DNA of 48,109 bases from Nitrospirota bacterium (lineage in GTDB: Bacteria > Nitrospirota > Thermodesulfovibrionia > Thermodesulfovibrionales > UBA6898): contig JAKAIZ010000001.1 of NCBI GenBank assembly GCA_021814065.1, forward strand, positions 18,692 to 66,800, given 5' to 3'. Shown one piece after another: positions 2,412-25,769 of this stretch; positions within the stretch are counted from its first letter, which is position 1; each line of letters starts with the position of its first letter. The notes below the pieces were generated by a model, which searched no databases, was not told the origin of the DNA, and was given only the letters and a program-made list of their open reading frames with translations. The translations under genes and the position numbers were made by a program.

Positions 2412-5126
2412 CTAATAGCCTAAATTGCCTACGGACACTCTTACGCCGTAACTTCTTGTCTGCAGTTGCATTGTCTTTATCAGCGTCCCTTTGGGGTCGA
2501 GTATCCAGAATTTATTGTCTCTGTCAGACGCAGCCCCGCCGAGTATGATTTCGGCTGAGCCGTCGAAATTGATGTCGCCCGCTGCAAGGGAGCCAACGGC
2601 CATCGTCGGCCGGAAGCTGCCGATCAGATTTCCGCTGCCGCTGAATTCCCGCACTTCCGTGCCCCTTCGGCCCCTGCAAAGCACGATAATGTCTGAGACG
2701 CCGTCTGCGTCCACATCAGCCGCAGCCAGGCCGGTGGCAGCAGGCGTGCTGCATGCCTTGAAGCGGCCGGTCATATCGGCCGTCCAGTGGCCGCTCCCTG
2801 CCGCCGTATTCACCTTGTAAATCTTCACTTCCGGAACAACGTCGCTGTCGGCCTGGAGCGCAATCAGTTCGGGTGCGCCGTCTCCGTCCACATCAGCTGC
2901 CGCGACGTTCACGCCCTGACCCAGGTCCTTGAACGGCTCTATATAGACGCCCGTATCGGCAACCGCGGACGCCGAGTACGAAAACACCCTGACCACGCTT
3001 GAGTCGGTCGCGTCGCCGGTAATGATATCGTCGTGGCCGTCGGCGTCGAAGTCGGCTGCGGCAAGGTTAACACCCCTCGCCCTGCTGTATGCGGAAAACT
3101 CAAGGCCCGGGATTGCAGCGCCGCCGCGGGTGAAGCCCTTAACAACCGAGGGAGCGCCGCCCACGATGATGTCGGCAGCCTTGTCGCCGTCGACATCGCC
3201 AACGGCGGTGCTCACTCCATACGCATACGGCATCGACGGCGTGAATGAAAAAGCACGGCTGACCGCGCCGCTTGCAGGGTCCATGCTGAAGATCTCCACT
3301 TCGTTCGACTCGCTCTTGTGCGACCCATGGCTTGCGACTATATTCAAGTTCTTTCTCAGATCGGCATAGTCACCGACAAATGCAGCGCTCTGTCCGACGT
3401 CTATCGTCTTGGTCTCGGAGGCGGGCGTCTTGAAGCCCGCTATATTCTCGTAGGTGACCGTGTAGGAACCGGGGGCAACGTCCGCCTGCGTGAAATTCAA
3501 ACCGGAATCGCTGACCGCGAATCCGGCCGGACCGCTGATCGTAAATTTGGCGTCCGCATTGTTCGTCGTCACGGTGATGTTGCTTGCCGCGATTACTTCG
3601 AGTGTTACGGGCACTGTCACCGGGCTGCCGTCAGCGCCGCCAAGAGTCACTGTGATGCTGCCGTTATATGAGCCTGCAGCTACAGCATCGGCGATCCTGA
3701 CCGCGGCGGCTGGAAGCGTGCTGGGGCCCTCGACCGGATTCACGCTGAGCCATCCGGCGTCGGGCGAGACGGACGCGCTCCACTTAAGCGTACCTCCGCT
3801 CACGTCATTGCCGATCGTAATGGTAATCGGAATCGGTGCAGTCGTTTCGCTCGACTTCCTCGAAATATTGATCGTCGCCGGGCTCACTGTCAGCGTGGCC
3901 GCCGGCGCGACCGTTACATTTACGGCGACGAGCTTTTCCCCGCCGGGCGTAGTGATGGTAATCGTACCCGCGGAGGGCGGTACTGCGCCAAATCCCGCAG
4001 TGCTCACTGCCACCGTAACGTCCTGGCCCGAATTCGCAGCAACCGTGCCGGTACTCTGGGAAATGGAAAGCCACGAAGCGCTCGCGGCATCGACAGTTGC
4101 ATTCCAGGTGAGCGGGGCGGTCCCGCTATTGGAGATGGTCAGTGTTTTCGACGGATCAGCCATGCCCTTCTGCCATGTAAAGTCGATAGGGTTAGGGGCG
4201 GCATCCAAGACGGTGTAAGCGCCGACTGCGTAAGCAGTTACGAAGTTGCCGGCAAGAGAAGCAAGATATAGCCTGTCATTGTTATAAGTAATGTTGGCCA
4301 TGTTATAGAGGGGATTTGCGGCATCGTAGATGGTTTTCAGAAAAACCCCGTTAGCGTCAAAGACCGCTATGATCGGCTGCAAGTTGTCGGAAATATAGAT
4401 CCTGCCGTCCTTATCGACCGCTATGCCGGAAGCAGAGCCTATCTTCCCTTCGGCCCCGTAGCCATAACTGGAAAAACTTCTGAGGGGAGCGCCGGCCAGG
4501 TCAAACGCCTGCACCCTCCATACTGGCGTATTTGCATAAGCACCCTCGGTCGCTGTTCCGCCCCTGTCGAGCACATAGAATTCGCCTTTTTGTTCGCTGA
4601 TAGCGATCGCCGAGGGATCGCGGAATATCGAGTATCCGCCGAACTCCATTACAACGTTCATCGCAGCGTCGAATTTCTTGACCTTGTAACCGTCAACCAG
4701 ATACATCTCTCCGGTGGAGAGAAAAGCCATGGCAGCCGGGCGCACCGCGTCCAACGTTCTTACGGACGCACCGGCAGAGTTGAATATGTCGATATAATAA
4801 TGACCGTTTTGCGCGTTTTCGCCGACATAGAGGAGGTTGCCGGGGGAGACTGCAATCGCAGTGGGGGTATATTTGAGGCTGATCGTCGTCTTTAATTCGC
4901 CCTTGTAATTGTATACCCGCACTTTATTATATAGTATGTCGGCAACATAAATGTTCCCTGCGGCGTCACTGGCGACCCTTGCTGAAAAGGTCTGCTTATT
5001 AATGGTAAGAAGCCTTGTTACATCGGGAGCTACAGCCCCCAGCAGAAGCTGCGGAGAGAGAAACATGACCGTCAGGACCAGCAGCAAGGATAGCTCAGTT
5101 TTCTTCCCCCTCAAAGTAGTAGCCAT
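2412..5126 (-). CDS. Secreted NHL-propeller / BACON / PEGA-like / FG-GAP surface protein
   Basis: The product is 904 aa. I chose the ATG at 5126 because AGGAGGAG lies 7 nt upstream and a signal peptide follows directly (MATTLRGKKTELS then a hydrophobic stretch); an in-frame ATG 39 nt earlier has neither. Domains in order: NHL-type beta-propeller blades (~35-315, e.g. SPGNLLYVGENA, DKDGRIYISDN); two Ig-like BACON-type domains (~315-500, with WLSISQSTGTV); a PEGA-like segment (~505-580, APGSYTVTYENIAGFKTP); then five FG-GAP/VCBS repeats (~590-900) with calcium-binding DxDxDG-type loops (DVDGDKAADII, DFDADGHDDII, DVDGDGAPELI, DVDADGVSDII). There are no heme sites. The protein is likely exported to the cell surface. 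It sits between a tetraheme cytochrome gene (44 nt upstream) and the giant cytochrome gene (13 nt downstream), probably in one transcript, suggesting a scaffold or adhesin working with them. The function is inferred from domains and context. Confidence 0.88.
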   Translation of the reverse strand: MATTLRGKKTELSLLLVLTVMFLSPQLLLGAVAPDVTRLLTINKQTFSARVASDAAGNIYVADILYNKVRVYNYKGELKTTISLKYTPTAIAVSPGNLLYVGENAQNGHYYIDIFNSAGASVRTLDAVRPAAMAFLSTGEMYLVDGYKVKKFDAAMNVVMEFGGYSIFRDPSAIAISEQKGEFYVLDRGGTATEGAYANTPVWRVQAFDLAGAPLRSFSSYGYGAEGKIGSASGIAVDKDGRIYISDNLQPIIAVFDANGVFLKTIYDAANPLYNMANITYNNDRLYLASLAGNFVTAYAVGAYTVLDAAPNPIDFTWQKGMADPSKTLTISNSGTAPLTWNATVDAASASWLSISQSTGTVAANSGQDVTVAVSTAGFGAVPPSAGTITITTPGGEKLVAVNVTVAPAATLTVSPATINISRKSSETTAPIPITITIGNDVSGGTLKWSASVSPDAGWLSVNPVEGPSTLPAAAVRIADAVAAGSYNGSITVTLGGADGSPVTVPVTLEVIAASNITVTTNNADAKFTISGPAGFAVSDSGLNFTQADVAPGSYTVTYENIAGFKTPASETKTIDVGQSAAFVGDYADLRKNLNIVASHGSHKSESNEVEIFSMDPASGAVSRAFSFTPSMPYAYGVSTAVGDVDGDKAADIIVGGAPSVVKGFTRGGAAIPGLEFSAYSRARGVNLAAADFDADGHDDIITGDATDSSVVRVFSYSASAVADTGVYIEPFKDLGQGVNVAAADVDGDGAPELIALQADSDVVPEVKIYKVNTAAGSGHWTADMTGRFKACSTPAATGLAAADVDADGVSDIIVLCRGRRGTEVREFSGSGNLIGSFRPTMAVGSLAAGDINFDGSAEIILGGAASDRDNKFWILDPKGTLIKTMQLQTRSYGVRVSVGNLGY

Positions 5127-5170
5127 TTTCGATCTCCTCCTATCTTCTTTTAAGCAAATCATCATATTCT

Positions 5171-5962
5171 TTATTTATTGTGGCAGGCAAGACACAACAA
5201 GCTGTTCTTATTATCAATAACCAGAAAATTGTTTTTCGTCGTAAGGTCGTTCGTGATATGCGGGTCGTGGCAGGTGTTGCATTCCATCCTGTGCTGGGTA
5301 ATGGCCATCCTGTCCAGCAGCGCCGTGTTAGTGATAATATTCAGTCCGTTCTGATTCGCCTGCTGGGCAGCGTCATAGTCGAAGCCTATCGGGTGATCGT
5401 TCTGGAGATTGCCTCCGGTGGTGCCGCAGTCGTCCCCGTTGCAGCTCGCATCGCCTATATTCAGGGCTGCCCATGAGGGGTCTCCTGTGGCGTCGCCGAA
5501 CTGGTCGGCTAACGGACCGATGACAGCCGGGATTGGAGTGTTATTCGGATAGTTCAGGAGCACGTTCATCGCGCCGACGCCGTCGTGACAGCTCAGACAG
5601 AGGAGAGACAGCGGACCGGGCTGGCCGCCGGCAAAGGTGCTGCTGGAATAGGGCGTAAAACTCGACGCGAGCGGCACCCTCCTGTTCCAGAGATAGCTGC
5701 CGCCAAGACTGCCCGCCGTGCCTGTCCCGGTGATCGGATTGCCTGAGTATGTCTGGTTGCTGTTGGCGTGGTGTGGCGTATGACAAAAGACGCATACGTC
5801 AGACTTGACACTATATGAGGCGAACCCGCCGATGCCACTGTTATTGGTCAGGTCGTGGTACCCGCCCCGAACGATGGATGCGGCATTTCGCACACTAACT
5901 GCGAAAAAAAACGCTGTCATTATGAGGACGATTAACCCTAAAATTATATATTTCTTGAACAC
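5171..5962 (-). CDS. Tetraheme c-type cytochrome, OmcE-like (candidate nanowire subunit), copy 1
   Basis: The product is 263 aa with a GTG start preceded by AGGAGGG 5 nt upstream. An N-terminal hydrophobic segment (MFKKYIILGLIVLIMTAFFF) serves as signal peptide or anchor. There are four CxxCH sites: CVFCHTPHH, CLSCHDG, CNTCHDPH and C-terminal CLACHNK. Four further conserved histidines sit in YHDL, TPHH, DHPIG and DPH, enough for bis-His ligation of all four hemes. The same plan recurs in the genes at 7530 and 18160. It matches, from memory, the OmcE tetraheme family of Geobacter whose members polymerise into extracellular filaments. A sigma-54 promoter lies ~60 nt upstream (6021-6036), and the gene heads a unit with the NHL/FG-GAP and giant cytochrome genes. 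The tetraheme call is secure; polymerisation is inference. An extra CNGDDCG pair at mid-protein could form a disulfide. Confidence 0.9.
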   Translation of the reverse strand: MFKKYIILGLIVLIMTAFFFAVSVRNAASIVRGGYHDLTNNSGIGGFASYSVKSDVCVFCHTPHHANSNQTYSGNPITGTGTAGSLGGSYLWNRRVPLASSFTPYSSSTFAGGQPGPLSLLCLSCHDGVGAMNVLLNYPNNTPIPAVIGPLADQFGDATGDPSWAALNIGDASCNGDDCGTTGGNLQNDHPIGFDYDAAQQANQNGLNIITNTALLDRMAITQHRMECNTCHDPHITNDLTTKNNFLVIDNKNSLLCLACHNK

Positions 5963-6020: not shown

Positions 6021-6036
6021 TGCAATACCTGTGCCA
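6021..6036 (-). promoter_or_regulatory. Sigma-54 (RpoN) promoter for the tetraheme gene at 5171-5962
   Basis: On the minus strand the sequence reads TGGCACAGGTATTGCA. This matches the -24/-12 consensus TGGCAC-N5-TTGC exactly, with correct GG-to-GC spacing. The predicted start of transcription is near 6010, leaving a ~48-nt leader to the GTG at 5962. It differs from the element at 18899-18914 at only two of 16 positions, and that element lies before a homologous gene. Confidence 0.8.
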
Positions 6037-6400: not shown

Positions 6401-7480
6401 TCAGGGCCAAATTTTAGACGAATAAAAGGCGTTGTCGTGCAGGACGTCCTTTCCGCCGATATGGCAACTAAGTAAGCAGACCGGTTTGCCGTCTACGCCG
6501 GGAACATATGTCGCCATTGGGCTTGAGGCCACAAAGGTCCTGTCAAAATCAATAAGATTGGGATCTCTCACCACGCCGTGGGGATTATGGCAGGCAGAAC
6601 AGGGTGTATGCAGATAAACTATATGCTCCTTATGCCGCTGGAAGCTCTGATTACCAAGGATGCTCTGGCGATTGTGACATTTGTAGCAGAGGGCATAAGC
6701 GGCAGGCCCTTCCGCCGTCTCGGTCCTGGTGTATTGGTCCGTCAGCATATGTTCCAGATTGGAGCCATGGGGACCCTTCGGCCCTGCCGGGTCGTCGTTT
6801 CCGTGGCAGTCCGAACACACTATCCGGCTGCTCACATCAAGCTTTCCGGTCAGGCTCGGCACTCGAATGTTCTTGCCGGCCGCCTCCACAGGGTGGAAAG
6901 ACGAATTAGTCGGTTCGAATTCGAGACTCACGTCTTTTGAGCCCGCCGGCAGGTTCATGCTGTCGGCGTGGCACTTATAACAGACCTCATACTCCTCGAC
7001 CGCCTCTTTTTCTACCTTTCTTCCTCTTTTGTGGCCGAACACCCCCTTCATTGGACTGCCGGATTCGGTCATATGAACGCTGTGGCAGTCCTCGCAGGCT
7101 ACGTGCCTCGGCATACCGGGGCTCCTCTCCGGAAGCGTTTCACCCTGGACATGATACATAGAGGTCTCTGCCACCGGGTGGCGGTAGCGTTTTCCGAATA
7201 CAGAGGAGATATCAGACCTGGTAAAAATACCCCTGCCCTGTCCGGCCAATCCATGACAGGAAAAACAGATGTCCTGTACCGACGAATTGAGCATCGGGGT
7301 TCCCTTCTGCCCATGGCCCTTATGACAGCCGGCGCAGCCTGAAGGGTTTTTTGTCTTGTCAAGGTGAGAGGGCTGTACTGCCGCCATCGACAAAACCGCC
7401 AATATAAGTACAGCCGCCAGGCCCCCAATAGTAACGGCAAAGGCCCTTCCCACCCGTGTAATCTCAAGCTTCGTATGCAT
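6401..7480 (-). CDS. Seven-heme c-type cytochrome with N-terminal membrane segment
   Basis: The product is 359 aa. I prefer the ATG at 7480 because AGAGG lies 7 nt upstream and a hydrophobic segment (~14-34) follows. Earlier in-frame ATGs would add a charged leader and reach the previous gene. There are seven CxxCH sites: CAGCH, CFSCH, CEDCH, CYKCH, CSDCH, CYKCH, CSACH. A C-terminal CLLSCH has one extra residue (CX3CH), so an eighth heme is uncertain. Several sites are paired (CxxCH followed by KGH, SVH or NPH), as in doubled-CXXCH cytochromes. The long basic N-region before the hydrophobic stretch suggests either a signal anchor in the inner membrane or a cleaved signal peptide. It lies 49 nt after a tetraheme cytochrome gene at the end of the beta-barrel/PPIase/NHL operon. 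A likely role is periplasmic relay of electrons from the inner membrane to the outer-membrane parts (inference). Confidence 0.88.
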   Translation of the reverse strand: MHTKLEITRVGRAFAVTIGGLAAVLILAVLSMAAVQPSHLDKTKNPSGCAGCHKGHGQKGTPMLNSSVQDICFSCHGLAGQGRGIFTRSDISSVFGKRYRHPVAETSMYHVQGETLPERSPGMPRHVACEDCHSVHMTESGSPMKGVFGHKRGRKVEKEAVEEYEVCYKCHADSMNLPAGSKDVSLEFEPTNSSFHPVEAAGKNIRVPSLTGKLDVSSRIVCSDCHGNDDPAGPKGPHGSNLEHMLTDQYTRTETAEGPAAYALCYKCHNRQSILGNQSFQRHKEHIVYLHTPCSACHNPHGVVRDPNLIDFDRTFVASSPMATYVPGVDGKPVCLLSCHIGGKDVLHDNAFYSSKIWP

Positions 7481-7529
7481 GGTATATCCTCTCATGCGGT
7501 ATTTGACCTCTTTGTGATCAAAACTGTTC

Positions 7530-8321
7530 TCATGGGCATGCAACATGGCATTTCAAACAAAGCGTGTCAGAATAAATGCGGTTGCCCCACGGGTCCGTAG
7601 GGGAGTCGGGCACCCTCAGGAACATCCAGTTCGGGGAATGGGCATCGTGGCATGAGGAGCATTGAACGCCTGTCCCCGGGTGGTCGGCGGTGGCGCAGGT
7701 ATATCCGATGGGCGGGGTATACCGGTTCGCCGTGGCCTTGAGATAATCCGGGTCGATCACGGCCTGCAGCTTCCATGCAATAGGCAGTGTCGGGCATTCC
7801 GTCGTCTTGTTGCTTCTCAGACAATCGCTTATCTCGATCGAGATGGGATGATGGCCGTCCAGAATGGACCCGAAACTGGTCGGACCGATAAGTTTGCCTC
7901 CGGACAGGTTCGTGCCTGTCATCGAGATGGTCGTTGCGAGGCCGCCAACGTTCTGGACCGCGCCGATCGGCTGGTCACCGTCATGGCAGCTGAGACAGAG
8001 CAGCGAGTCGCCGTCGGGCATATTGCCGGCGGGAAGAGGCGACAACAGCGTCGAAGTATGGTAAAGGGTATAGCTCTTTACGGTAGACATCGAGTGGTTC
8101 CAGAGCGGCCCGTTAGTGAGCGCCCTGTGCGGGGTGTGGCAAAATACGCAGACCTGCGTCTCCGTCGTCGCGTGGATGTTCTGAATCGGCGAACCGGCCC
8201 CGGTCGCCGAAAAGTTATGTTTAGTCTTGCGGATGTCGCCGGAGCCGGCGGAAAACACCAGACCACCAAAAGAGAAGATCCCGATACATACCGCTACAGC
8301 CAACAACAAGCCTCTCTTCAT
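7530..8321 (-). CDS. Tetraheme c-type cytochrome, OmcE-like (candidate nanowire subunit), copy 2
   Basis: The product is 263 aa with a clean signal peptide (MKRGLLLAVAVCIGIFSFGG...FSA) and GGGAGGAA 6 nt before the ATG. Heme sites are CVFCHTPHR, CLSCHDG, CSSCHDAH and CLKCH near the C-terminus. Conserved extra histidines lie in TKHNF, TPHR, HHPIS and DAH, giving the same 4+4 plan as the genes at 5171 and 18160. The C-terminal tail (VACP) is longer than the simple CxxCHNK ends of its paralogues. It has no promoter of its own: it follows the NHL lipoprotein gene by 42 nt and shares that operon with the beta-barrel and PPIase. It may be the filament subunit dedicated to that barrel, or a periplasmic or barrel-embedded relay. 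Cysteine pairs between the HPI and third heme motifs (CLRSNKTTEC, CATADHPGTGVQC) could form disulfides. Confidence 0.9.
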   Translation of the reverse strand: MKRGLLLAVAVCIGIFSFGGLVFSAGSGDIRKTKHNFSATGAGSPIQNIHATTETQVCVFCHTPHRALTNGPLWNHSMSTVKSYTLYHTSTLLSPLPAGNMPDGDSLLCLSCHDGDQPIGAVQNVGGLATTISMTGTNLSGGKLIGPTSFGSILDGHHPISIEISDCLRSNKTTECPTLPIAWKLQAVIDPDYLKATANRYTPPIGYTCATADHPGTGVQCSSCHDAHSPNWMFLRVPDSPTDPWGNRIYSDTLCLKCHVACP

Positions 8322-8363: not shown

Positions 8364-9416
8364 CTAACTCCCTCCAAGGAACTGAAAGGCCTGTATCCTT
8401 CTGTTGAGCATATCGGCCACATAGATTACATTACTGTCATCGATAAAAATACCGGCCGGCAGATAGAAGTCGCCGTAGCGTTCGCCCTTTTCTCCGAAAA
8501 AGAGGAGCAGCCTCCCTTCCTGGTCGAAGATCTTGACCGTATTTCCTGCGCCATCGACGATATAGATATGTCCTTCGGTGTCTACCGCCACTCCCTTGGG
8601 TTTGTCGAGGGTGTCGTAAGAATCGCCGAGCCGCCCTATGGCATTCAGGAACTTCCCGTCCGGCGAGAACTTCTGCACCCTGAAGTTGAGAAAGTCGGTG
8701 ACATAGACATTTCCGTCCTTGTCGACGGCGGCATAGGTCGGGTAATAGAACTCGCCGGGACCCTCCCCCCTGCGCCCGATCGCTCCCCTTCTCTTGCCGT
8801 CAGTCCCGTAGATATAGACGGTATGGGCGTCCGTATCGACGACATACAGTACGCCTCTGCCCCTGTCTATGGCAAGCCCCTCGGGCCGCAGAAACCCGCC
8901 CTCGAAGTCGAGGAGGAACTTCCCGTCCGGCCGGTAGGCCATAACCTTCTTAAGCTCGGAGTCGGACAGATAGATGGTGCCCGATGAATCGGCCGCAACT
9001 CCCCTGGGATACGAAAGCGACTCCCCGCCGCCTGCCTCGGCTATCTGAAGGACATCCATCGTCTTTCTGTCGATTACGGTCAATCTGGCCGCCCCCGGGT
9101 CGGCGATATAGTAGCGTTTTTCATCAACGTAAATTCCCTGGGGACGCAGGAGCGTATCCGCCGTCTGGGGGTCGTTAGCCCCTCCACCGGCGATGATATC
9201 GAGATAATCGGTATTCCGCTCCCCCGAAGGCCCGGCGGCAACATTACTCAGACTCCAGAGGTACTTTATGCGCGGTTTTTCGGGCGAACCGGGCCATACG
9301 ATGCCGCCTGAAGCTGCGGCGTCAAGCTGCGCGCGGTATGCCGGGGCGCAGGAGACAAGCGCAGCGCCGATCGTGCCGGCAATGAGCAGAAGCTCAATAG
9401 ACCTCAATCTTCGCAT
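8364..9416 (-). CDS. NHL-repeat beta-propeller lipoprotein, copy 1
   Basis: The product is 350 aa. The signal sequence ends in a lipobox (ALVSC, Cys ~23), so this should be a lipid-anchored periplasmic or outer-membrane protein. After the conserved motif VWPGSPEKPRIKY come about six NHL blades (e.g. DKDGNVYVTDFLNFRVQKF, DTEGHIYIVDGAGNTVKIF, DDSNVIYVADMLNRRIQAF), the size of a complete six-bladed propeller. It has no heme or catalytic motif. The start overlaps the end of the PPIase gene by 23 bp, so the two are probably translationally coupled; the tetraheme cytochrome follows by 42 nt. Paralogues with the same WP..P..P[KR]I motif lie at 19089 and 41529. NHL proteins recur beside extracellular cytochrome genes in Geobacter (for example near omcS, from memory). 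A docking or assembly role is inference. Confidence 0.88.
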   Translation of the reverse strand: MRRLRSIELLLIAGTIGAALVSCAPAYRAQLDAAASGGIVWPGSPEKPRIKYLWSLSNVAAGPSGERNTDYLDIIAGGGANDPQTADTLLRPQGIYVDEKRYYIADPGAARLTVIDRKTMDVLQIAEAGGGESLSYPRGVAADSSGTIYLSDSELKKVMAYRPDGKFLLDFEGGFLRPEGLAIDRGRGVLYVVDTDAHTVYIYGTDGKRRGAIGRRGEGPGEFYYPTYAAVDKDGNVYVTDFLNFRVQKFSPDGKFLNAIGRLGDSYDTLDKPKGVAVDTEGHIYIVDGAGNTVKIFDQEGRLLLFFGEKGERYGDFYLPAGIFIDDSNVIYVADMLNRRIQAFQFLGGS

Positions 9417-10422
9417 TCTCCTTCAATCTCTTCAGAAGATCAGCCTCCCTTTCCTTGATCCGCTTCTCTTCGAGCTGTTTCCTCAGCTTATCCTTGACCT
9501 CGTCATAGGTCAGCTGGACAGGAGGGTTCTTCTCCACCACCTTCACGATATGGAACCCGTATAAAGTCTCTATCAGGCCGCAGATCTGCCCCGTCTCACA
9601 TTGAAAAGCCGCTTTTTCGAGCTCTGGGTCGAGCCTACCCTTATGGACAAGGCCGAGATCTCCGCCCTTTACGCTCCACGCGTCATTCGAGTGCTTGTAG
9701 GCAAGGTCCTCGAAATCCTCGCCGGCCTTTGCCCTTGCGAGGATATCGGCAGCCTCCTTTCGCTTCGCTTCCTTCTCCTCAGCGGTAGCGGCCGGATCGA
9801 CGCTGATCAGGATATGAAGCAGCTTTGCCGATTCGGGCCGCATATGGTCCTTCTTGTTCTTTTCGTAATTCTCCTTCACCTCTTGTTCGGACACCTTTGC
9901 CTTGTCGATGATCTCGCCTTCCATGAATTTGGTGACGATAAGGTTTCTCTCGATCCCGTCTTTCAGTGTGTCAAGGGTATAACCGGAAGAGGCAAGGGCC
10001 TTCGAAAAATCGGCTTCCGTCTTGAACCGCTTCCGCAGCCGATCGACAGCCTCGTCCACATCAGCGCTCTTCACCGCCACGCCGGTCCTCTTTGCCTCCT
10101 GGAAATAGAGCTCGGTCTTGATGAGCTCCTCGAGGGCCTTCGGCCTGAACTCGGCGCGCTTCTCCGGGGTGACCGTGCTGTGATAGATCGCCTTCGGCAA
10201 CATCGCGTCTATCATCTCTTCGAGCTTTTTTTCGGTAAGGACCTTCCCGTTGACGCGCGCGACCGGCTTCTCAGGCCCATTGCCGTCCCCCGCCTTCGCA
10301 CTGCTAACATGAAGAAAGACGAGCAGAATTGCGGCCGATGCCAGGACGAGGCCGATACGGACAGCTGAAGGCCTTCCCGTCGCTCTGTTTCCATTCTCCG
10401 GTATTATACGTCCACTTGTCAT
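9394..10422 (-). CDS. Periplasmic parvulin-type peptidyl-prolyl cis-trans isomerase (SurA/PpiC-like)
   Basis: The product is 342 aa. The ATG at 10422 has AAGGAG 6 nt upstream and forms a TGATG stop/start overlap with the beta-barrel gene. An N-terminal export signal (~22-45, VRIGLVLASAAILLVFLHV) precedes a SurA-like helical chaperone region (~50-175, starting VARVNGKVLTEKKLEEM) and one parvulin domain (~185-285) with the typical landmarks LLHILISV, KGGDLGLVHKGRLDPELEKA and YGFHIVKV. A charged helical tail (~290-340) completes it. The family isomerises X-Pro bonds and chaperones outer-membrane or secreted proteins. Its place between a large barrel and exported cytochromes suggests a dedicated folding factor for them; a PPIase also adjoins omcZ in Geobacter (from memory). 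Confidence 0.9.
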   Translation of the reverse strand: MTSGRIIPENGNRATGRPSAVRIGLVLASAAILLVFLHVSSAKAGDGNGPEKPVARVNGKVLTEKKLEEMIDAMLPKAIYHSTVTPEKRAEFRPKALEELIKTELYFQEAKRTGVAVKSADVDEAVDRLRKRFKTEADFSKALASSGYTLDTLKDGIERNLIVTKFMEGEIIDKAKVSEQEVKENYEKNKKDHMRPESAKLLHILISVDPAATAEEKEAKRKEAADILARAKAGEDFEDLAYKHSNDAWSVKGGDLGLVHKGRLDPELEKAAFQCETGQICGLIETLYGFHIVKVVEKNPPVQLTYDEVKDKLRKQLEEKRIKEREADLLKRLKENAKIEVY

Positions 10423-12866
10423 CAAAAACTCCTTTTAAACGTCCTCGTTACCCTCAGGTAGATGCGGTGTTCGGTATCTTCCTTCTCCGCGCCATCATTC
10501 TTAATTATCCTGCCCTCGTATTCCGCCGAGACAGCCACTTTCCCGTACTGCCAGGTGAACCTGGACCGCAGCCACTTTGAGGTGTGCGTATCGTCTCTAT
10601 CATAAGTCAGCCCGAGGGAAAAAGTCGAATTTCTGGTAATAACCGCGTTGTAGAAGAGGCTTCCGCTGTAGAAGGTGTTGTTCCCGTTTTCGATAAGGCC
10701 CGACTTATTTTTTTCGTAGTAGCCGCTCAGGGTAACGCGGTGCCAGCCGCTGAACCAGTTCACCACCCCGTCGACCCTGTCCGACTTGCTCATGCCCTCA
10801 TCAAGGCCGTTCTTCGACTCACGGTGCTCGAGGCCGGCCTGGGCTGACATATTCCCGGTGATCACTCCGGTGACTCTCAGTCTCAACACATGGGTCGGCG
10901 AGAGACCTCCGTCACTGCGGTTTATCGGCTCCGTCGAACGAAGCGGGACTACAGAACCGTCGACCATCATCTCGAAAAAATAGTCCCCGGTGATCGTCAG
11001 CCTGCGCCACTTCGTGGTGTTGAAGCTGATCCCAACCCCATACGGAATGTCGCTGTTCAGGAAACTGACGTGCGCCGCCCCGGTCAGGACAAGGCCCCTG
11101 ATCCCGCTGTAGGTCACGTTTTCGGCTAAGTTCACACCATAGGTCGACGACGGACCGGTCGTTGTCGTAAAGAGGCCTTCGTTGATGACCGCCGTCTGCT
11201 CCTCGGAGAAGTCGCTCTTTTGCGCTATAGCGGAGGCTGTGGATATGGAAAACAACGTTGGAGTCACATTTTTCCGCATCGTACCGGATGCGTTCAGGGC
11301 ATAGGTGCTGCTTCCCTGGTTGTGATTATAGTCGGCCCCGAACACGATGTCGTACGCAGTGTTATTTCCCTTCACGAAGTTCGCCTCCGCGTGGGAATTC
11401 ACGTGGAAGGCCGATGCGGAATCTAACAACGAGTATTCGACATTGCTGTCCACCTTGAACTTCCGGATGTAATTCGTGGCGTCAAGAGATATCCTTGTGT
11501 TCGTCTGGGTATCTGTCGCCCGGTACCCGCCGAGCGTATGCGTGTTTTCCGTTGATTCACGGTTATAGTAGAGGACATAGGAGTAGTTCCGCGAATCCAT
11601 CCTCGCCCGGGCATCGAGCGTGCCTCGTTCAATTTTCTCGGTGTCGGTCTCGTAAATATTTCTGTCATAGTCGACATTGATTAACGGGAAGGGCACCTTC
11701 AGCCCTGACCCGGCGGGATTCTGATTCTGATTCTGGTTCTGGTTCTGGTTCCGGTTACCATTCTCCTGGGGCAGGTAGTCGCTGTTGTTCTCACCGTTGC
11801 CATTGCCATTGCCATTGCCATTGCCATTGCCATTGCCATTGCCATTGCCATTGCCATTGCCATTGCCGTTGCCATTGCCGTTGCCATTGCCGTTGCCGTT
11901 TTGACCGTTGAGCTGCTGATTGAACTTCAGCCGGATCTGCTCCTCGAAAATGCTATGGACAGAGACAAACTTGCCGCCGGAAAAAAACCTGAAATAGACC
12001 GGCAGATAATACATTGCGCTTACGCCGTAGTTACTGGTCGTGAAATCGCTTCCCGAATACCTCGAAAACCTCAGGGAGATCGGATGCGGCATATAGGCGA
12101 GAAAAGCGAACTTCGGATTTGAGATCCTGCGGACGTCGTTAAGCAGGCTGAGCCCGATATCTAAACCCTTTACAGAGTATCCCTCGTCGTCGCCGGACCT
12201 CTTAAGAAAAGACCCCTGCACCGAGAAGGTCGCCAGCCTCGTATCGATGACCGGCCCTGTCAGGCCGAGCTGATAGTTCTGCGTGAAGAACGACCCGGCC
12301 TCCTCAGCCCCCCCCTGACCGGATATCCATCTCTTTTCGTACTCAAGGCCGATGACACCTGTAAGAACGTACCGATTGGACAACCCTCTATACGCAGCCC
12401 CGGCAGCCGGAGCGAAGAGCAGGCACAGAAACTGGACCATCACAAACGCCAGGGCGACCAATGCGATGCTCACAGGCGTCCTCTTCCCGCGCCTGTCATC
12501 GCGGTCTTCCTGCCTGCCGCCTGCTCCTTTGCGAACGCCGCTGAAAGGCTTCACTCCAGTACCGTTTTTTCTCCTTCCCTTCAGCTCGACGGCCTGTCCG
12601 CGGCTCTCGATAAGCGCAATGTCTCTTTTCAGGGTCGCAAGCGAGGTAAGAAGCAGCGCCGAGAGGTCTTCATAACTCAGGAGGCAGTCCTGCCGGCCGG
12701 CCTCGCGCGTCAACCTGAGGATCCTTTGCAGCCTCAATTCCCTGACGCCTCTTCTCGACAGCAAGTCCTGATCTTCAAGGCCGATAAGGGTAAGATGCAG
12801 GGTCCTGAAGGAAGTCTTTCCGTCCTTCTGACAGTCACACCTGTATTCCACCTTTCCGAACTCCAT
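10422..12866 (-). CDS. Large outer-membrane beta-barrel protein with an HTH-like N-terminal extension
   Basis: The product is 814 aa as one open frame. Residues ~15-115 resemble the HTH protein encoded just upstream (shared LxLRxxRxLRL...LTY/LSYxDLS..LLTS..TLKRD). Then comes a basic stretch (RRGKRT), a hydrophobic export signal (~132-158, VSIALVALAFVMVQFLCLLF...AGA), and about 650 residues of alternating beta-strands with many Tyr/Phe, ending in the outer-membrane signature TRTFKRSF. A long Asn-Gly / Asn-Gln simple-sequence insert lies at ~325-375. A GTG at 12473 with AAGAGGA 5 nt upstream sits exactly at the export signal and could start the barrel alone (683 aa); the ATG at 12866 has its own AAAGG. 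Both products may be made, since an HTH segment before a signal peptide makes little sense in one exported chain. The barrel opens the operon that continues into PPIase, NHL lipoprotein and cytochromes, fitting an outer-membrane conduit or filament exit port (inference). Confidence 0.82.
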   Translation of the reverse strand: MEFGKVEYRCDCQKDGKTSFRTLHLTLIGLEDQDLLSRRGVRELRLQRILRLTREAGRQDCLLSYEDLSALLLTSLATLKRDIALIESRGQAVELKGRRKNGTGVKPFSGVRKGAGGRQEDRDDRRGKRTPVSIALVALAFVMVQFLCLLFAPAAGAAYRGLSNRYVLTGVIGLEYEKRWISGQGGAEEAGSFFTQNYQLGLTGPVIDTRLATFSVQGSFLKRSGDDEGYSVKGLDIGLSLLNDVRRISNPKFAFLAYMPHPISLRFSRYSGSDFTTSNYGVSAMYYLPVYFRFFSGGKFVSVHSIFEEQIRLKFNQQLNGQNGNGNGNGNGNGNGNGNGNGNGNGNGNGNGNGNGNGENNSDYLPQENGNRNQNQNQNQNQNPAGSGLKVPFPLINVDYDRNIYETDTEKIERGTLDARARMDSRNYSYVLYYNRESTENTHTLGGYRATDTQTNTRISLDATNYIRKFKVDSNVEYSLLDSASAFHVNSHAEANFVKGNNTAYDIVFGADYNHNQGSSTYALNASGTMRKNVTPTLFSISTASAIAQKSDFSEEQTAVINEGLFTTTTGPSSTYGVNLAENVTYSGIRGLVLTGAAHVSFLNSDIPYGVGISFNTTKWRRLTITGDYFFEMMVDGSVVPLRSTEPINRSDGGLSPTHVLRLRVTGVITGNMSAQAGLEHRESKNGLDEGMSKSDRVDGVVNWFSGWHRVTLSGYYEKNKSGLIENGNNTFYSGSLFYNAVITRNSTFSLGLTYDRDDTHTSKWLRSRFTWQYGKVAVSAEYEGRIIKNDGAEKEDTEHRIYLRVTRTFKRSF
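11718..11753. repeat. Second hexanucleotide array encoding (Asn-Gln) repeats
   Basis: About six copies of [A/G]TTCTG (last one GTTCCG) encode alternating Asn-Gln in the same frame, ~40 bp from the Asn-Gly array. Both lie in the same presumed loop of the beta-barrel. Confidence 0.9.
11796..11897. repeat. Hexanucleotide array encoding (Asn-Gly)17 in the beta-barrel
   Basis: Seventeen tandem copies of [A/G]TTGCC (plus strand) encode alternating Asn-Gly. Most copies are ATTGCC, with GTTGCC variants towards the ends. Because the unit is six bases, slippage lengthens or shortens the loop without breaking frame. Position within a barrel suggests a length-variable surface loop. Confidence 0.95.
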
Positions 12867-12874: not shown

Positions 12875-13180
12875 TTACCGCTGCCCCCGCTCCCTCATGT
12901 CTCTTTTCAGCGTCGATCTGGAGGTGAGGAGGATAAGGCTAAGGTCACGGTAAGTTAGCCGGGCGCCCTGTTTCTCCGCCTCCTCCATCAACCTCAGCAT
13001 CCTATGCCTCCTGAGCTCCGCAAGCCCCGACCTGTTAAGTACTTCGATGTCGTTGTCGCAGCAGTAAGTCAACTTGAGGCTCTTCAACCTTTCGCTGCCT
13101 TCCCTCATCCAGTAAACCAGACTGCATTTCATCCTTCGAATATCCTCCGTTGTCGGCTTACGGTCCCTATGAAACCGCAT
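12875..13180 (-). CDS. Small HTH protein, DUF1670-like
   Basis: The product is 101 aa. Its C-terminal two thirds carry a helix-turn-helix-like pattern (LTYRDLSLILLTSRSTLKRD) close to the N-terminal region of the 814-aa ORF that starts 8 nt downstream. I relate both to the DUF1670-type HTH family; that name is tentative. The protein stops right after the recognition-helix region, so it is short for that family and may be a truncated or half-domain regulator. The ATG at 13180 has only a weak SD; an internal ATG at 13132 (MKCSLVYW) is an alternative. It is the first gene of the beta-barrel/cytochrome operon, so it could regulate it. Confidence 0.7.
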   Translation of the reverse strand: MRFHRDRKPTTEDIRRMKCSLVYWMREGSERLKSLKLTYCCDNDIEVLNRSGLAELRRHRMLRLMEEAEKQGARLTYRDLSLILLTSRSTLKRDMRERGQR

Positions 13181-13614: not shown

Positions 13615-13650
13615 TTTTCTCTGTGCCTCTGTGGTAAATGACCTGCCTTT
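13615..13650 (+). repeat. Half-copy of a dispersed TCTCTGTG..CTCTGTGG repeat
   Basis: TTTTCTCTGTGCCTCTGTGG and the bases after it (to TGCCTTT) resemble the right arm of the inverted-repeat element at 44155-44312. Similar CCACAGAG-type motifs are common between genes in environmental bacterial genomes (from memory). Only one arm is present here. Confidence 0.55.
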
Positions 13651-13720
13651 ACTGGGTTCAGTAATGACAGAAATTCGAATTCCTTGCAGCAGGAAACGGA
13701 TTTCCTTTAGAATAATTCCG

Positions 13721-14629
13721 ATGCGCAAAAGTATTATCATGATCATGCTGTTTCTTTCATTCTCATGGCAGTCAATCAGCCGTGTGCAGGCCGGCACGGA
13801 CGCCGATCCTGACGTCAGCGGTCCTTCCGATGTGGCCCTTGTCCCGGCGGGGAGTTTTCTTATGGGCAGCCCAATTATAGAGAACAGGCCGCTCGAAGGC
13901 TATCCGGGGGCGGAAACCCCGCGGCATAAGGTATTCCTTGATTCGTTCTATATCGATAAATTCGAGGTGACGAACGGGCAGTTTGCGGCGTTCCTGAACT
14001 CCCTGAAGGACGAGAAAGGGTTCGACGAGAAAAGACCAAAGTGGGTCGTGATACGGGACGACCTCGATACGCCGGGAAAAAAGGATTGGTGGCCCACCGA
14101 GATTGCCCTTGAAGACGGCGTCTACAAGGCCCTGCCGGGATTCGAAAGATATCCGGTCATAAGCGTCAGCTGGTATGCAGCCGACGCATATTGCAGATGG
14201 GCCGGAGGGAGGCTGCCGACCGAAGCGGAGTGGGAAAAGGCGGCAAGGGGAGGCATTGCCGAGGCGGACTATCCCTGGGGAGACGAGCTGCCCACGAGCG
14301 GCATCGTCTTTAAGCAGAAATGGAGAAGCAACGCCTATCCCGCGCCGACGCAGGAGGTCGACAGCTATTACCCCAACGGATACGGACTCTACCATACGGC
14401 CGGCAATGCCTCTGAATGGTGCGCCGACTGGTACGCGCCCGACTACTACGGGAAATCGCCCGGCAAGGACCCCAATGGGCCGGATACGGGCAGGACGAAG
14501 GTGATTCGCGGCGGCTCCTGGGCGAGCGTCGCCGCAAATCTCCGCGTCGCCTACAGGAGTTTCAGCACCCCCGACGGGCTCAACAGCGGGGTCGGGTTCC
14601 GGTGCGCAAAAGATGCGGAACGGAAGTAG
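13721..14629 (+). CDS. Secreted FGE-sulfatase-fold protein lacking the catalytic cysteines
   Basis: The product is 302 aa. I chose the ATG at 13721 because it begins a signal peptide (MRKSIIMIMLFLSFSWQSIS, cleavage near VQAG); upstream in-frame codons give no export signal. The whole mature part is the formylglycine-generating-enzyme (SUMF1/PvdO) fold: VPAGSFLMGS, FYIDKFEVTNGQFAAFL, YPVISVSWYAADAYCRWAGG, LPTEAEWEKAARGG, GNASEWCADWY and the end VIRGGSWAS...GVGFRCA. In true FGEs two cysteines follow the GGS motif; here that stretch reads GGSWASVAANLRVAYRSF with none. Formylglycine formation is therefore unlikely, and the protein is probably a binding or structural member. It is first in a plus-strand operon with a GT-C/TPR protein, overlapping it by 17 bp. 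Confidence 0.87.
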   Translation: MRKSIIMIMLFLSFSWQSISRVQAGTDADPDVSGPSDVALVPAGSFLMGSPIIENRPLEGYPGAETPRHKVFLDSFYIDKFEVTNGQFAAFLNSLKDEKGFDEKRPKWVVIRDDLDTPGKKDWWPTEIALEDGVYKALPGFERYPVISVSWYAADAYCRWAGGRLPTEAEWEKAARGGIAEADYPWGDELPTSGIVFKQKWRSNAYPAPTQEVDSYYPNGYGLYHTAGNASEWCADWYAPDYYGKSPGKDPNGPDTGRTKVIRGGSWASVAANLRVAYRSFSTPDGLNSGVGFRCAKDAERK

Positions 14630-16580: not shown

Positions 16581-16583
16581 GGA

Positions 16584-17378
16584 ATGGATCTGCAGGAATA
16601 CAGGACAGGGAATCGTGAGGCTGAAGCAAGGCATCCGTGGGAGCTGGCCCGTCTGGAGGTGATCACCGCCCTTATGAGGCAACACCTGATGGGGCCGTCC
16701 TCACGGGGATATGCCTTCCTGGATATCGGCGCGGGCGATCTTTTTCTGGGCAGGGAACTCTGCGGGAGATTTCCGGTTGCGCGCTATATTGCCGTCGACA
16801 CGGCATTTGACGAAGACGCTTCGGAGACTGAGGCACTGACTGCCGGGGACGCGCGCATCAGGACATTTCGCTCATGGCAAGAGACCATGCGGTCTGTCGA
16901 TTCCTCCTTCGACATGGTGCTGCTTCTCGATGTCCTCGAACATATTGAAGATGAAGCCGCGTTTCTGAAATCGCTGAGGGAGAGCTCCTCCGTGACCGGT
17001 GAGACCCTTTTTCTCATCACCGCCCCGGCATTCCAGTCTTTGTATTCCTCGCACGATTTATTTCTCGGTCATTACCGCAGGTATAACAACAGGATTCTTA
17101 AAGAACTTGTGTGCCGGGCCGGACTGAGCGCAATCGATGCGGGATACTTCTTTTTCACTCTCCTGCCCCCGCGGGCGCTCCGGGTGTTGTGCGAGAAGGC
17201 CGGTCTTCCGAGACGCCGGCAATTCAGGGGGGTAAGCGGATGGCGGCCTCATATACTGAGAGATTTTTTGCTGAAAGAGGTGTTGTCCCTGGATTTTGCA
17301 GCCTCATCCCTGGCGCGGAAACTGGGGATAAACCCCATCGGCCTGTCGAACTACCTGATATGCAAAAAAGCTGCATAG
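16584..17378 (+). CDS. SAM-dependent class I methyltransferase
   Basis: The product is 264 aa. SAM-binding motif I is FLDIGAGDLFLG (~47-58), with the acidic motif II at IAVDTAFDED and the motif IV-like stretch FDMVLLLDVLEHIEDEAAF; VLEHIE is typical of the Methyltransf_11/23 class. It starts 3 nt after the GT-C/TPR gene and overlaps the next glycosyltransferase by 19 bp, so it is part of one operon. The substrate is unknown; a sugar or lipid-linked intermediate of the same pathway is the natural guess. Confidence 0.85.
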   Translation: MDLQEYRTGNREAEARHPWELARLEVITALMRQHLMGPSSRGYAFLDIGAGDLFLGRELCGRFPVARYIAVDTAFDEDASETEALTAGDARIRTFRSWQETMRSVDSSFDMVLLLDVLEHIEDEAAFLKSLRESSSVTGETLFLITAPAFQSLYSSHDLFLGHYRRYNNRILKELVCRAGLSAIDAGYFFFTLLPPRALRVLCEKAGLPRRRQFRGVSGWRPHILRDFLLKEVLSLDFAASSLARKLGINPIGLSNYLICKKAA

Positions 17379-18100
17379 TAATTCCCTGCTATAATGAGGA
17401 AAAAAGGCTGCCCGTCGGGGAGATCGCCGCTTTTTTGAGAGAGAGCGATTCCGTTTCGCTGTATTTTGTCAATGACGGCAGCAAAGACGGAACCGCCCGG
17501 GTCCTCGACGATATTCGCATGCTGGGGCAGGACAGGGTGTCGGTCCTGGAACTCCCTGAGAACAGGGGAAAGGCCGAGGCGGTCAGGCTCGGGATCCTGG
17601 AGGCCCTTCACCGGCAATCGTTTCATATCGTAGGATATTTTGACGCCGACCTTTCCGCACCCCTGACAGAAATCAACCTGCTTCTTGAGTATATGGATCT
17701 CGGTCCCCCCTATGAGGTCGTGACCGGCTCGAGGATCAGGCGGCTCGGCGCCCGCATCGAAAGGCGGCCCTGTCGGCATTACGCCGGCAGGGTCTTTGCG
17801 ACCTGCGCGAGCCTCATCCTTGGCCTGCCGGTGTATGACACCCAGTGCGGCGCAAAGATCTTTCGGGCGGAGCTGGCAGAGCAGATATTCTGCAGACCCT
17901 TTTCTACGTCATGGCTCTTCGATGTCGAGATCTTCGCGCGCGCCGCGGCTGTCCTCGGCCCGGACGGGGCAATCGAAAAAATAGCAGAGGCGCCGCTCAG
18001 ACAGTGGGTCGGCAAGACGGGATCCAAGTTGCGGACACGCCATATCCTGACAGCGCCGCTTGAATTGGCGAGGATCTATCTTGAATACAGGAGGGGCTGA
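17360..18100 (+). CDS. GT2 glycosyltransferase, dolichyl-phosphate beta-glucosyltransferase type
   Basis: The product is 246 aa starting MQKSCIVIPCYNEEKRLP. Upstream in-frame codons only read through the methyltransferase gene in another frame. GT-A landmarks: VIPCYNEE, YFVNDGSKDGT and the metal-binding FDADLSAP; then TGSRI and CGAKIFR, as in ALG5/DPG-synthase-like enzymes that charge polyprenyl phosphate with a hexose. No C-terminal membrane helices are seen. It could make the lipid-linked donor for the GT-C enzyme in the same operon (inference). The SD is weak, consistent with translational coupling. Confidence 0.85.
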   Translation: MQKSCIVIPCYNEEKRLPVGEIAAFLRESDSVSLYFVNDGSKDGTARVLDDIRMLGQDRVSVLELPENRGKAEAVRLGILEALHRQSFHIVGYFDADLSAPLTEINLLLEYMDLGPPYEVVTGSRIRRLGARIERRPCRHYAGRVFATCASLILGLPVYDTQCGAKIFRAELAEQIFCRPFSTSWLFDVEIFARAAAVLGPDGAIEKIAEAPLRQWVGKTGSKLRTRHILTAPLELARIYLEYRRG

Positions 18101-18113: not shown

Positions 18114-18144
18114 TTAGAGGGGGAGCTTTCGCGCCCCCCTCTAA
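18114..18144. terminator. Bidirectional hairpin between convergent genes
   Basis: TTAGAGGGGG (18114-18123) pairs with CCCCCTCTAA (18135-18144) around an 11-nt loop. It sits in the 59-bp gap between the convergent stops at 18100 (plus) and 18160 (minus). The stem is strong and symmetrical, but neither side has a good T-run. Confidence 0.65.
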
Positions 18145-18159
18145 GGATACGGAAACAAA

Positions 18160-18834
18160 CTACTTGTTTGAATGACAATCGGTGCAGATACTATTCAGAG
18201 TGTCTTTCAGGAACGGTGTCTTACCTGCGTCAGTCATATGCGGGTCATGGCATGAACCGCACTCGACCCTGCCTGTTGCATTACCGCCGCCGTAGATCCT
18301 CCAGTTCTTGTTGTTGATAGTAGATCCATCTGCTGCGATAGTGCTGTTCAGACCGGCCTTCGTCTTAGCGGTGTCATACACGACGCCGATAGGATGGGTC
18401 GTGGTAAGGTCCGTGCCGATGTAGCCTCCTCCACCGACGAGCTTGCCGGCTGAGATAACGAGAGTATTAGTGGCAGTGATTGTGTCACTCGGCCCATTAA
18501 GGACGTCGCCGAGATTCATCGTGCCGTCATGGCAGCTGAGGCAAGTCATGGAATTGGCTCCTGGCTGAGCGATAGTTGAACCCGACAGCGTATTACCACC
18601 GCTATTGCTAGCGTAAAGAGCATACGTCGCTGTCGAATTTGCCCTGTTCCAAAGCGGCGCAGCGACGCCGGCAGCTGCATGGTGAGGCGTGTGGCAGAAT
18701 TGGCAGGCAGATTTCGCTGCGGTGCTGGTGTAATAGACACTGGATGTAAGGTCATGCTTCGACCCCGCAATCTTGGCGAATGCCGCACTAGATACCAGGA
18801 GTACTATAACTACTAAAATAAGCGTTTTCTTCAT
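18160..18834 (-). CDS. Tetraheme c-type cytochrome, OmcE-like (candidate nanowire subunit), copy 3
   Basis: The product is 224 aa. The ATG at 18834 has a near-perfect SD (AAAGGAGGTG, 6 nt spacing) and a signal peptide ending SSAAFA before KIAGSKHDL; an upstream ATG at 18903 would read through the promoter. Heme sites are CQFCHTPHH, CLSCHDG, CGSCHDPH and CTDCHSNK. The other histidines are KHDL, TPHH, THPIG and DPH, so the protein holds exactly four CxxCH and four candidate distal ligands. Apart from the signal peptide it is nearly all family core with a PLWNRA motif as in OmcE-like proteins, making it the best nanowire-subunit candidate here. It is a single-gene unit with its own sigma-54 promoter and a terminator on both sides, as expected for a very abundant product. 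Confidence 0.92.
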   Translation of the reverse strand: MKKTLILVVIVLLVSSAAFAKIAGSKHDLTSSVYYTSTAAKSACQFCHTPHHAAAGVAAPLWNRANSTATYALYASNSGGNTLSGSTIAQPGANSMTCLSCHDGTMNLGDVLNGPSDTITATNTLVISAGKLVGGGGYIGTDLTTTHPIGVVYDTAKTKAGLNSTIAADGSTINNKNWRIYGGGNATGRVECGSCHDPHMTDAGKTPFLKDTLNSICTDCHSNK

Positions 18835-18898
18835 TAGTTTCACCTCCTTTCCTGATTGGATTCTATGAGCTAAGTAAAGCTCCAGTTTTAGATAAGCT

Positions 18899-18914
18899 TG
18901 CAATGCCTATGCCA
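18899..18914 (-). promoter_or_regulatory. Sigma-54 (RpoN) promoter for the tetraheme gene at 18160-18834
   Basis: The minus strand reads TGGCATAGGCATTGCA, with GG and GC at the exact -24/-12 spacing and one mismatch in TGGCAC. Predicted transcription starts near 18888, ~54 nt before the ATG. It is 14/16 identical to the element at 6021-6036 before the paralogue. Confidence 0.78.
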
Positions 18915-19088: not shown

Positions 19089-20144
19089 CTACTGGGCAGC
19101 CTGCCTCTGCTGCCACTTTTTCCCCATATACTGGAAGACCTGGACTCGGGCGGTAAACTGCTCGGTCACATAGACCCGGTCCTCGTTGTCGATGGCGATG
19201 CCGGCGGGGAGAAAGAACTGACCGGGGTCCGAGCCCTGCCCCCCGAAGAAAAGGAGGAGTTCTCCCTTTTTATTGAATACCTGGACGTTCTGGTACGCTG
19301 CGTCCACGACGTAGATGTTGCCATCGGAGTCCAGGGCGATCCCTTTGGGTCTGGCGAACTGGCCGACGGCATCGCCGAGCTCGCCGAACTTGCTCAGGAA
19401 CTTGCCTTCCGGGTCGAATATCTGCACCCTGAAGTTCTGGGTGTCGACGACATAGACGTCTCCGGCCTTGTCGACCGCAACGTGCGTCGGCGTATTGAAC
19501 TCGCCGTCGGCCTCACCCCGCTTGCCGAACGTAAAGAGCGGGTTGCCGTCGAGGCTGAAGACCTTCACCCGGCACTTTTTTGAGTCGACTGCATAGAGCC
19601 TCTGCCTTTCGTCGTCGACTGCGAGGCCCATGGGGTTTTCAAAATCGTCCTTCTGTCCGATCGTCCTCAGGAACGTGAAATTACTGTCGTACATCATGAT
19701 TAACTTCTTGTGGTTGTCGGCGACGTAGATCCTGCCGGTCCGGTCGGATACCGCCAATCCCGAGGACGAATCGAGGGCGCCCATGCCCCCGGCCCCGAGA
19801 AACCCCATCTTGTGGCCCTTCTTGTCGAATACAGCCACAAAGCCAGCGTCCGTGACAAAGACCCTGCCGTCTTTGTCCACGGCAACGCCATAGGGTTTCG
19901 TCAGCTTATATTCCGTGGTCTCTCCGAAGATCGTCTCTCCGATGGAACTCGCCTTTTCAACGTCTCTGTCGCTCTGAATGATCTCGACGTATTTGATCTT
20001 CGGAGGGTCGGGCGGAGACGGCCACGTCAGGTCCCAGACCTTCTCGGGCGGGGCTGCGCACCCCGCAAATAATGCGATGACTGCCACCAACATTATGTAG
20101 CGGACAGCCCGAAGGCCACCGGCATTGCCGACCACGCGTTTCAT
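19089..20144 (-). CDS. NHL-repeat beta-propeller lipoprotein, copy 2
   Basis: The product is 351 aa. The ATG at 20144 has AAGGAG 9 nt upstream and leads into a lipoprotein signal (RYIMLVAVIALFAGC, Cys ~27); in-frame ATGs further upstream run into the preceding gene. The family motif TWPSPPDPPKIKY is followed by six NHL blades (DKDGRVFVTDAGFVAVFDK, DKAGDVYVVDTQNFRVQIF, DSDGNIYVVDAAYQNVQVF, DNEDRVYVTEQFTARVQVF). It lies 52 nt after the 11-heme cytochrome gene, and the next gene is tetraheme copy 3. It is thus the counterpart of the gene at 8364, again between a multiheme carrier and a nanowire-like subunit. Confidence 0.9.
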   Translation of the reverse strand: MKRVVGNAGGLRAVRYIMLVAVIALFAGCAAPPEKVWDLTWPSPPDPPKIKYVEIIQSDRDVEKASSIGETIFGETTEYKLTKPYGVAVDKDGRVFVTDAGFVAVFDKKGHKMGFLGAGGMGALDSSSGLAVSDRTGRIYVADNHKKLIMMYDSNFTFLRTIGQKDDFENPMGLAVDDERQRLYAVDSKKCRVKVFSLDGNPLFTFGKRGEADGEFNTPTHVAVDKAGDVYVVDTQNFRVQIFDPEGKFLSKFGELGDAVGQFARPKGIALDSDGNIYVVDAAYQNVQVFNKKGELLLFFGGQGSDPGQFFLPAGIAIDNEDRVYVTEQFTARVQVFQYMGKKWQQRQAAQ

Positions 20145-20196
20145 ATCGATCATCTCCTTTTGCTGGGTAATCTTCGTCATAATTGCCGCACGTCCG

Positions 20197-21084
20197 TCAC
20201 ATCTTGTGGCAGGCGCTGCAGATGTCCATCGGCGTCCTCGCATCATACCTGAACAGACCGGATGAGTCTGAGCTGTGGGGGTTGTGGCAGCTGCCGCAGT
20301 AAAACCGCTTGCCCGGACGGGCGGGGTCTTCGAGGTACTTCTTATTCTTCTTCGCTATGCCGAGGGGGTGGCCGTAGGACTGGAATCCCGCGACCGCATG
20401 GGGGACCTTCCTGACGTTGGCGTGGCAGTCGAGACAGACGAAAGGCGGGTCCTTCCGCAAGAGCGCCATCTGCTCCGATGCATGCGGGGCATGACAGTCC
20501 AGGCATAGGCCGGCCGCAACCGGCGGGTGCACGTTTTTTTTCGTGAAGGCCGACTTGTCGTGGCAGGTGTAGCACAGACCGGGGGGAACGCTCACCAGCA
20601 GCTTTTCATTGTCGGACTGATGGGGGGAATGGCAGGACGTGCAGAGCCCGATGCCGACGGGGGCGTGGACCGTCTTGCCGGTGAATTTCTTTTTGTCGTG
20701 GCAGGTGTAGCAGAGGTCGGGCAGCTCGGCCTTCAGCAGCTTGGCGTTTTTGGAAGAATGCGGATTATGGCAGCTTGTGCAGCCCATGCCGACGGCGGCG
20801 TGAACGACCTTCTTCTTCAGTCTCATCTTATCGTGGCACCCGAAACAGAGCTCGGGCTGCTCAGCCGAAAGCCCCATGGGGACCTTGTTTGTCATCTTGT
20901 GCGGCACCTCGGCCGCGTCAACGGCCGTATGGCAGGAAGTACAGCCCATCTGGAGCGCGGGGTGGACCACCTTTTCTTTGGTCAGGGCCTCGTGGCAGAC
21001 CACGCAGTCAGGCCCGGCGGCATGCGCTGCGGAGACGCACAGGAAAAAAGAAAAAAACAAAATACAGAGTACCGAAGGTCTCAT
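20197..21084 (-). CDS. Eleven-heme periplasmic cytochrome of the doubled-CXXCH type
   Basis: The product is 295 aa with a signal peptide (MRPSVLCILFFSFFLCVSAAHA) and AAGGAG 9 nt upstream of the ATG. I count 11 CxxCH sites: CVVCH, CTSCH, CFGCH, CTSCH, CYTCH, CTSCH, CYTCH, CLDCH, CLDCH, CGSCH, CSACH. They alternate in ~45-residue units of the form LCxTCHDK...KxVHxPV..GxCxxCHxPH, i.e. tandem doubled-CXXCH modules. Dense heme packing and small size fit a linear periplasmic electron wire. No membrane anchor is seen. A TTGACA box lies at 21196-21201 on this strand, but its -10 is poor, so co-transcription with the gene at 21224 is possible. Confidence 0.92.
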   Translation of the reverse strand: MRPSVLCILFFSFFLCVSAAHAAGPDCVVCHEALTKEKVVHPALQMGCTSCHTAVDAAEVPHKMTNKVPMGLSAEQPELCFGCHDKMRLKKKVVHAAVGMGCTSCHNPHSSKNAKLLKAELPDLCYTCHDKKKFTGKTVHAPVGIGLCTSCHSPHQSDNEKLLVSVPPGLCYTCHDKSAFTKKNVHPPVAAGLCLDCHAPHASEQMALLRKDPPFVCLDCHANVRKVPHAVAGFQSYGHPLGIAKKNKKYLEDPARPGKRFYCGSCHNPHSSDSSGLFRYDARTPMDICSACHKM

Positions 21085-23653: not shown

Positions 23654-23720
23654 CGCCTTATTATATTTTGCCGGGGCCGGAGATTTCAAATAAACGATTG
23701 TCCCTGCCAGCCATACCCAT

Positions 23721-25750: not shown

Positions 25751-25769
25751 ACCGTCGTTGACATCGTGG

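Follow-up and report, generated by a model that had tools for sequence, protein, structure and literature searches.

A tetraheme cytochrome of Nitrospirota as a proposed major subunit of extracellular filaments of the OmcE type

Our analysis suggests that a small tetraheme cytochrome, encoded in the MAG of an uncultured Nitrospirota bacterium near Thermodesulfovibrio, is the major subunit of an extracellular cytochrome filament of the OmcE type, a reading that draws on sequence and on a structural model and to which we assign a probability of roughly two in three. The gene (copy 3) is one of three for OmcE-like tetraheme cytochromes, each representing a conserved class, in the 48,109-nt stretch of DNA analysed here (the window). 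The initial annotation had proposed an abundant filament subunit; homology, predicted fold and the class-wide combination of size, sigma-54 site and Shine-Dalgarno (SD) strength favour this, whereas codon usage does not, and the histidines and the sigma-54 site proved not to be discriminating.

Protein, predicted fold and heme ligands

The copy 3 locus comprises the following features.

18160..18834, minus strand: copy 3, OmcE-like tetraheme cytochrome of 224 aa, predicted to be secreted and proposed as the major filament subunit
18841..18850, minus strand: SD of copy 3, AAAGGAGGTG, exact
18899..18914, minus strand: predicted sigma-54 -24/-12 site of copy 3, TGGCATAGGCATTGCA, 12/12 to the consensus, 80 nt before the ATG
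18119..18146, no strand: GC-rich hairpin in the gap where copy 3 and a GT2 gene converge, terminator-like, without a long T run

Translation of 18160–18834 bears out the minus-strand gene, the length of 224 aa and the four CxxCH motifs originally described. The N terminus, MKKTLILVVIVLLVSSAAFA, reads as a signal peptide and is followed by KIAGSKHDL and then by the CxxCH motifs. The layout also agrees with the description of copy 3 as a solo unit, with a convergent gene on its 3′ side, a strong hairpin in the gap between them and 254 nt separating copy 3 from its upstream gene.

In a PDB sequence search, copy 3 matches OmcE of Geobacter sulfurreducens (GSU0618, PDB 7TFS) over residues 5–222 (E 9e-24). 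Its best match, nearly full length, is 9YUQ (E 7e-30), a putative multiheme cytochrome c of 16 chains with 218 aa and the same ligand pattern; our literature search found no paper naming this entry. An AlphaFold2 model of moderate confidence, built from a 58-row alignment (pLDDT 65, pTM 0.64), has 7TFS as its sole significant PDB match (E 9.6e-8, TM 0.55/0.60), and this was again the only PDB match of an earlier, weak model (28 rows, pLDDT 52.7). The likeness to OmcE noticed in the original reading is therefore supported by both homology and predicted fold, and extends to length (224 aa against 232 aa), the four CxxCH motifs, the aligned distal histidines and similarity over the full length. 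However, identity in the structure match is only ∼31%, the two proteins come from different phyla, and copy 3, known from sequence and model, is accompanied by two further OmcE-like classes. Matches to 7TFS exist for copies 1 and 2 too, but their best stretches cover part of the protein only.

Four histidines outside the CxxCH motifs had been reported, in the motifs KHDL, TPHH, HPIG and DPH. All four motifs are present but the count is five (H27, H51, H52, H147 and H199), since TPHH holds two. In an alignment of 55 OmcE-like proteins, consisting of the three window copies, their relatives and the stretches of 7TFS and 9YUQ matched in the PDB sequence search, H27, H51, H147, H199 and the four CxxCH histidines are invariant (55/55), and the four distal histidines align with those of OmcE. 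H52, the second histidine of TPHH, is variable (histidine in 9/55), which leaves exactly 4 + 4 useful ligands, the number found in OmcE. Loss of distal histidines in orthologues, which had been named as grounds for rejecting the proposal, was looked for in this alignment and was not seen. The same conservation across all three classes rules out the distal histidines as a marker of the filament copy.

In filaments of OmcE and of OmcS, a histidine from the adjacent subunit serves as ligand to one of the hemes (PMC9473688), and copy 3 may polymerise in the same manner, through one such heme per subunit; the continuous heme chain of the filament would then carry respiratory electrons outward. It counts against the filament reading that the ligand set is common to classes that may not polymerise. 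Alternatively, copy 3 could be an abundant, soluble tetraheme shuttle of the periplasm or the extracellular space that does not polymerise, a role to which a signal peptide and four hemes would be equally suited; relatives of the copy 2 type carry the same ligands and are fused to other heme domains, and thus the fold does not force polymerisation. We consider the shuttle unlikely, as the nearest solved relative of described function is a filament subunit and genes for secretion and assembly lie in the neighbourhood.

Expression signals and the three classes

The other two copies, described in the initial annotation as longer and as members of multigene units, are indeed both (263 aa each).

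5171..5962, minus strand: copy 1, 263-aa OmcE-like tetraheme cytochrome, class 1 (7TFS match, tree)
2412..5165, minus strand: 917-aa NHL/BACON/FG-GAP protein adjoining copy 1 (domain search)
6021..6036, minus strand: perfect sigma-54 site before copy 1 (consensus scan)
7530..8321, minus strand: copy 2, 263-aa OmcE-like tetraheme cytochrome, class 2, without a sigma-54 site (tree)
6401..7546, minus strand: heptaheme cytochrome with seven CxxCH and one CxxxCH, overlapping copy 2; in other lineages part of one chain with an OmcE-like domain

In the phylogenetic tree, class 2 is separate (support 100/99) and class 1 is supported at 86/81, with class 3 and OmcE forming a polytomy. The tree did not place OmcE with class 3, and AU tests on three placements of OmcE rejected none (p 0.35, 0.28 and 0.22). 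In one single-contig genome (G012, 91% complete), only a class-2 gene was seen; this, like the tree, weighs against the filament reading.

The SD of copy 3, described at first as near-perfect, is exactly AAAGGAGGTG at 18850–18841, and its predicted pairing with the anti-SD is the strongest among the 39 genes of the window (-22.2 kcal/mol; next -14.7). This is a property of the class, with a median of -21.0 kcal/mol for class 3 against -11.2 for class 1 and -10.4 for class 2; the start codons of the relatives were picked partly by SD strength, by one rule across all classes, and the associated p-values (0.001 and 0.0002) are optimistic because related genomes are not independent. Codon usage carries no mark of high expression (CAI 0.599 for copy 3 against 0.68–0.72 for ribosomal genes, in a genome where this contrast is weak overall), and codon bias therefore lends no support to abundance.

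The sigma-54 unit attributed to copy 3 corresponds to a predicted 12/12 site whose form agrees with the Geobacter RpoN consensus TTGGCACGGTTTTTGCT (PMC2725144), and an rpoN gene was found in the same genome. Sites of at least 11/12 precede 17/19 class-3, 8/9 class-1 and 0/14 class-2 genes, with a background of 1.9% in random 420-nt windows, which were drawn from loci rich in these cytochrome clusters. The implied contrast with the other copies thus holds against copy 2 but not against copy 1, whose own site is perfect and conserved, and a sigma-54 site unique to copy 3 is ruled out. It is highly improbable that the strong signals reflect chance or general features of the genome. Consensus matches in a single genome are weak evidence, and the window holds five sites with at most one mismatch where 1.3 are expected; however, only seven perfect sites, that of copy 3 among them, occur in the whole 3.33-Mb genome, the signals are conserved across related genomes, and class 2 provides an internal negative control.

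A further perfect site of this genome, at locus L054 (G000:C10:29500-33000), lies in front of an NHL-like gene, behind which come a 466-aa hexaheme cytochrome gene and a similar second one (395–3500); the hexaheme count is that of OmcS, by count alone. The other perfect sites (L055–L058) precede response-regulator genes, an lpxC-like gene and a polysaccharide-export-like gene, or other genes.

Among the three conserved classes, class 3 alone unites small size, a sigma-54 site and a very strong SD. In relative terms it is well supported from these sequence features that copy 3 is the likely shaft, since no other class is as small or carries the two expression signals together; sigma-54 control combined with the extreme SD would yield many copy 3 molecules on demand. 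That copy 1 is instead the major subunit, or that both co-polymerise, seems to us decidedly unlikely: its conserved sigma-54 site, identical ligand set and 7TFS match are consistent with such a role, but class-1 proteins are longer (median 265 aa), their SD is ordinary, and their genes accompany a large FG-GAP/NHL gene and in most cases a large multiheme one as well, as would befit a specialised or minor subunit.

Neighbouring genes and possible assembly of the filament

Copy 3 has the following neighbours, among them candidates for a part in its export and assembly.

8364..9416, minus strand: NHL beta-propeller protein (domain search)
9394..10425, minus strand: SurA/PpiC-type prolyl isomerase, which in several relatives directly follows copy 3
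10422..12866, minus strand: DUF1670 part continuing in frame into a signal peptide and then a predicted outer-membrane barrel (the latter read from sequence)
12875..13180, minus strand: DUF1670 protein at the start of the barrel operon (domain search)
19089..20246, minus strand: NHL beta-propeller protein, a conserved neighbour on the upstream side of copy 3 (relatives' loci)
20197..21084, minus strand: 11-heme cytochrome, a conserved neighbour (relatives' loci)

In relatives whose surroundings were read, the recurring order is a 9–13-heme cytochrome, an NHL propeller, copy 3 behind its sigma-54 site, a divergent SUMF1-like gene, the DUF1670 genes, the barrel, the prolyl isomerase, an NHL propeller, copy 2, the heptaheme cytochrome, copy 1 behind its sigma-54 site, a large FG-GAP/NHL protein and a large multiheme protein. 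In nine genomes (G003, G007, G009, G014, G018, G020, G026, G031 and G043), copy 3 is followed, as the next gene listed, by one for a prolyl isomerase, an arrangement that links copy 3 with the assembly genes. More widely, scanning of bacterial and archaeal genomes gave at least 530 OmcE-like stretches; 69 of 176 genomes of the window's own order have a match, a count that mixes all OmcE-like classes, and an NHL gene lies within the fetched ∼6 kb flanks in 75/80 loci from many phyla.

Once exported, copy 3 would mature in the periplasm with the aid of the prolyl isomerase and may pass outward through the outer-membrane barrel, with companion parts contributed by the other units: copy 1 with the large propeller protein, and copy 2 with the heptaheme cytochrome. 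By domain type, the prolyl isomerase, barrel and propellers are plausible counterparts of members of the osc (OmcS companion) cluster of G. sulfurreducens, in which we take OscH to be a prolyl isomerase and OscD to be propeller-like. That cluster differs in that its filament is built of the hexaheme OmcS, whereas the window genes are proposed to serve the tetraheme copy 3. Roles proposed for the OmcS filament are folding for OscH, secretion for OscE/F/G and morphology for OscD (PMC13194489).

In the 10422–12866 product, a search against Pfam gave no barrel match, and the barrel part contains a long GN repeat. The DUF1670 (DNA-binding-like) and barrel parts are two genes in several relatives, and an internal start, a real fusion or an assembly error are possible. 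At 13631–14629 lies a conserved SUMF1-like secreted protein (formylglycine-generating-enzyme fold), divergent beside copy 3 in several relatives. At 2–2398 (minus strand), the FG-GAP gene is followed downstream by that of a large multiheme cytochrome, which contains internal repeats that are nearly identical and extends past the edge of the window, and large multiheme genes occupy the equivalent position in relatives.

The regions flanking copy 3 (14613–18100 and 21224–38484) hold many glycosyltransferase and polysaccharide-export genes, including large TPR membrane proteins. Filament glycosylation or exopolysaccharide are possible roles of these genes, and the nearby sugar transferases would fit, by analogy, with the glycosylation reported for OmcE (PMC9473688).

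A possible division of labour among the copies

The overlapping copy 2 and heptaheme genes (6401–8321) are separate here, and in many lineages (L022, L025, L070–L144) they correspond to one 11-heme chain. In 56 proteins, an OmcE-like domain and a heptaheme match are found in a single chain in the same order as the window genes; these come mostly from other lineages, with one (G010) from the same family, and the heptaheme match is weak or short in about half. Profile scoring did not discriminate the class of the fused OmcE domains (class 2 scored best in 18 and class 3 in 38). The heptaheme protein of the window carries at its end a CxxxCH motif (CLLSCH), a possible binding site for an eighth heme.

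From the fusion and the adjacency alone, the sequences suggest that copy 2 and the heptaheme protein form an adaptor. We tentatively propose, as a possibility we hold to be doubtful, a divided system in which copy 3, produced in quantity, would form the shaft, copy 2 and the heptaheme protein together a membrane adaptor, and copy 1 with the large propeller protein a specialised component, such as a tip or surface-contact subunit. The adaptor would offer an OmcE-shaped docking subunit by which the wire is anchored and fed.

OmcE-type cytochromes and their wide spread are already known from published work; the proposed division of labour between whole classes and the fused candidate for an adaptor are newer. 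OmcE-like genes, together with likely assembly genes, are here extended to Nitrospirota. The anchoring, electron feeding and secretion of cytochrome nanowires have been described as unresolved (PMC12307469). Conservation of a free OmcE-like protein with strong signals for expression on the one hand, and of an OmcE-like domain linked to a heptaheme cytochrome on the other, provides a concrete candidate for the anchor and, if the divided system is true, it would explain how OmcE-type wires join the cell.
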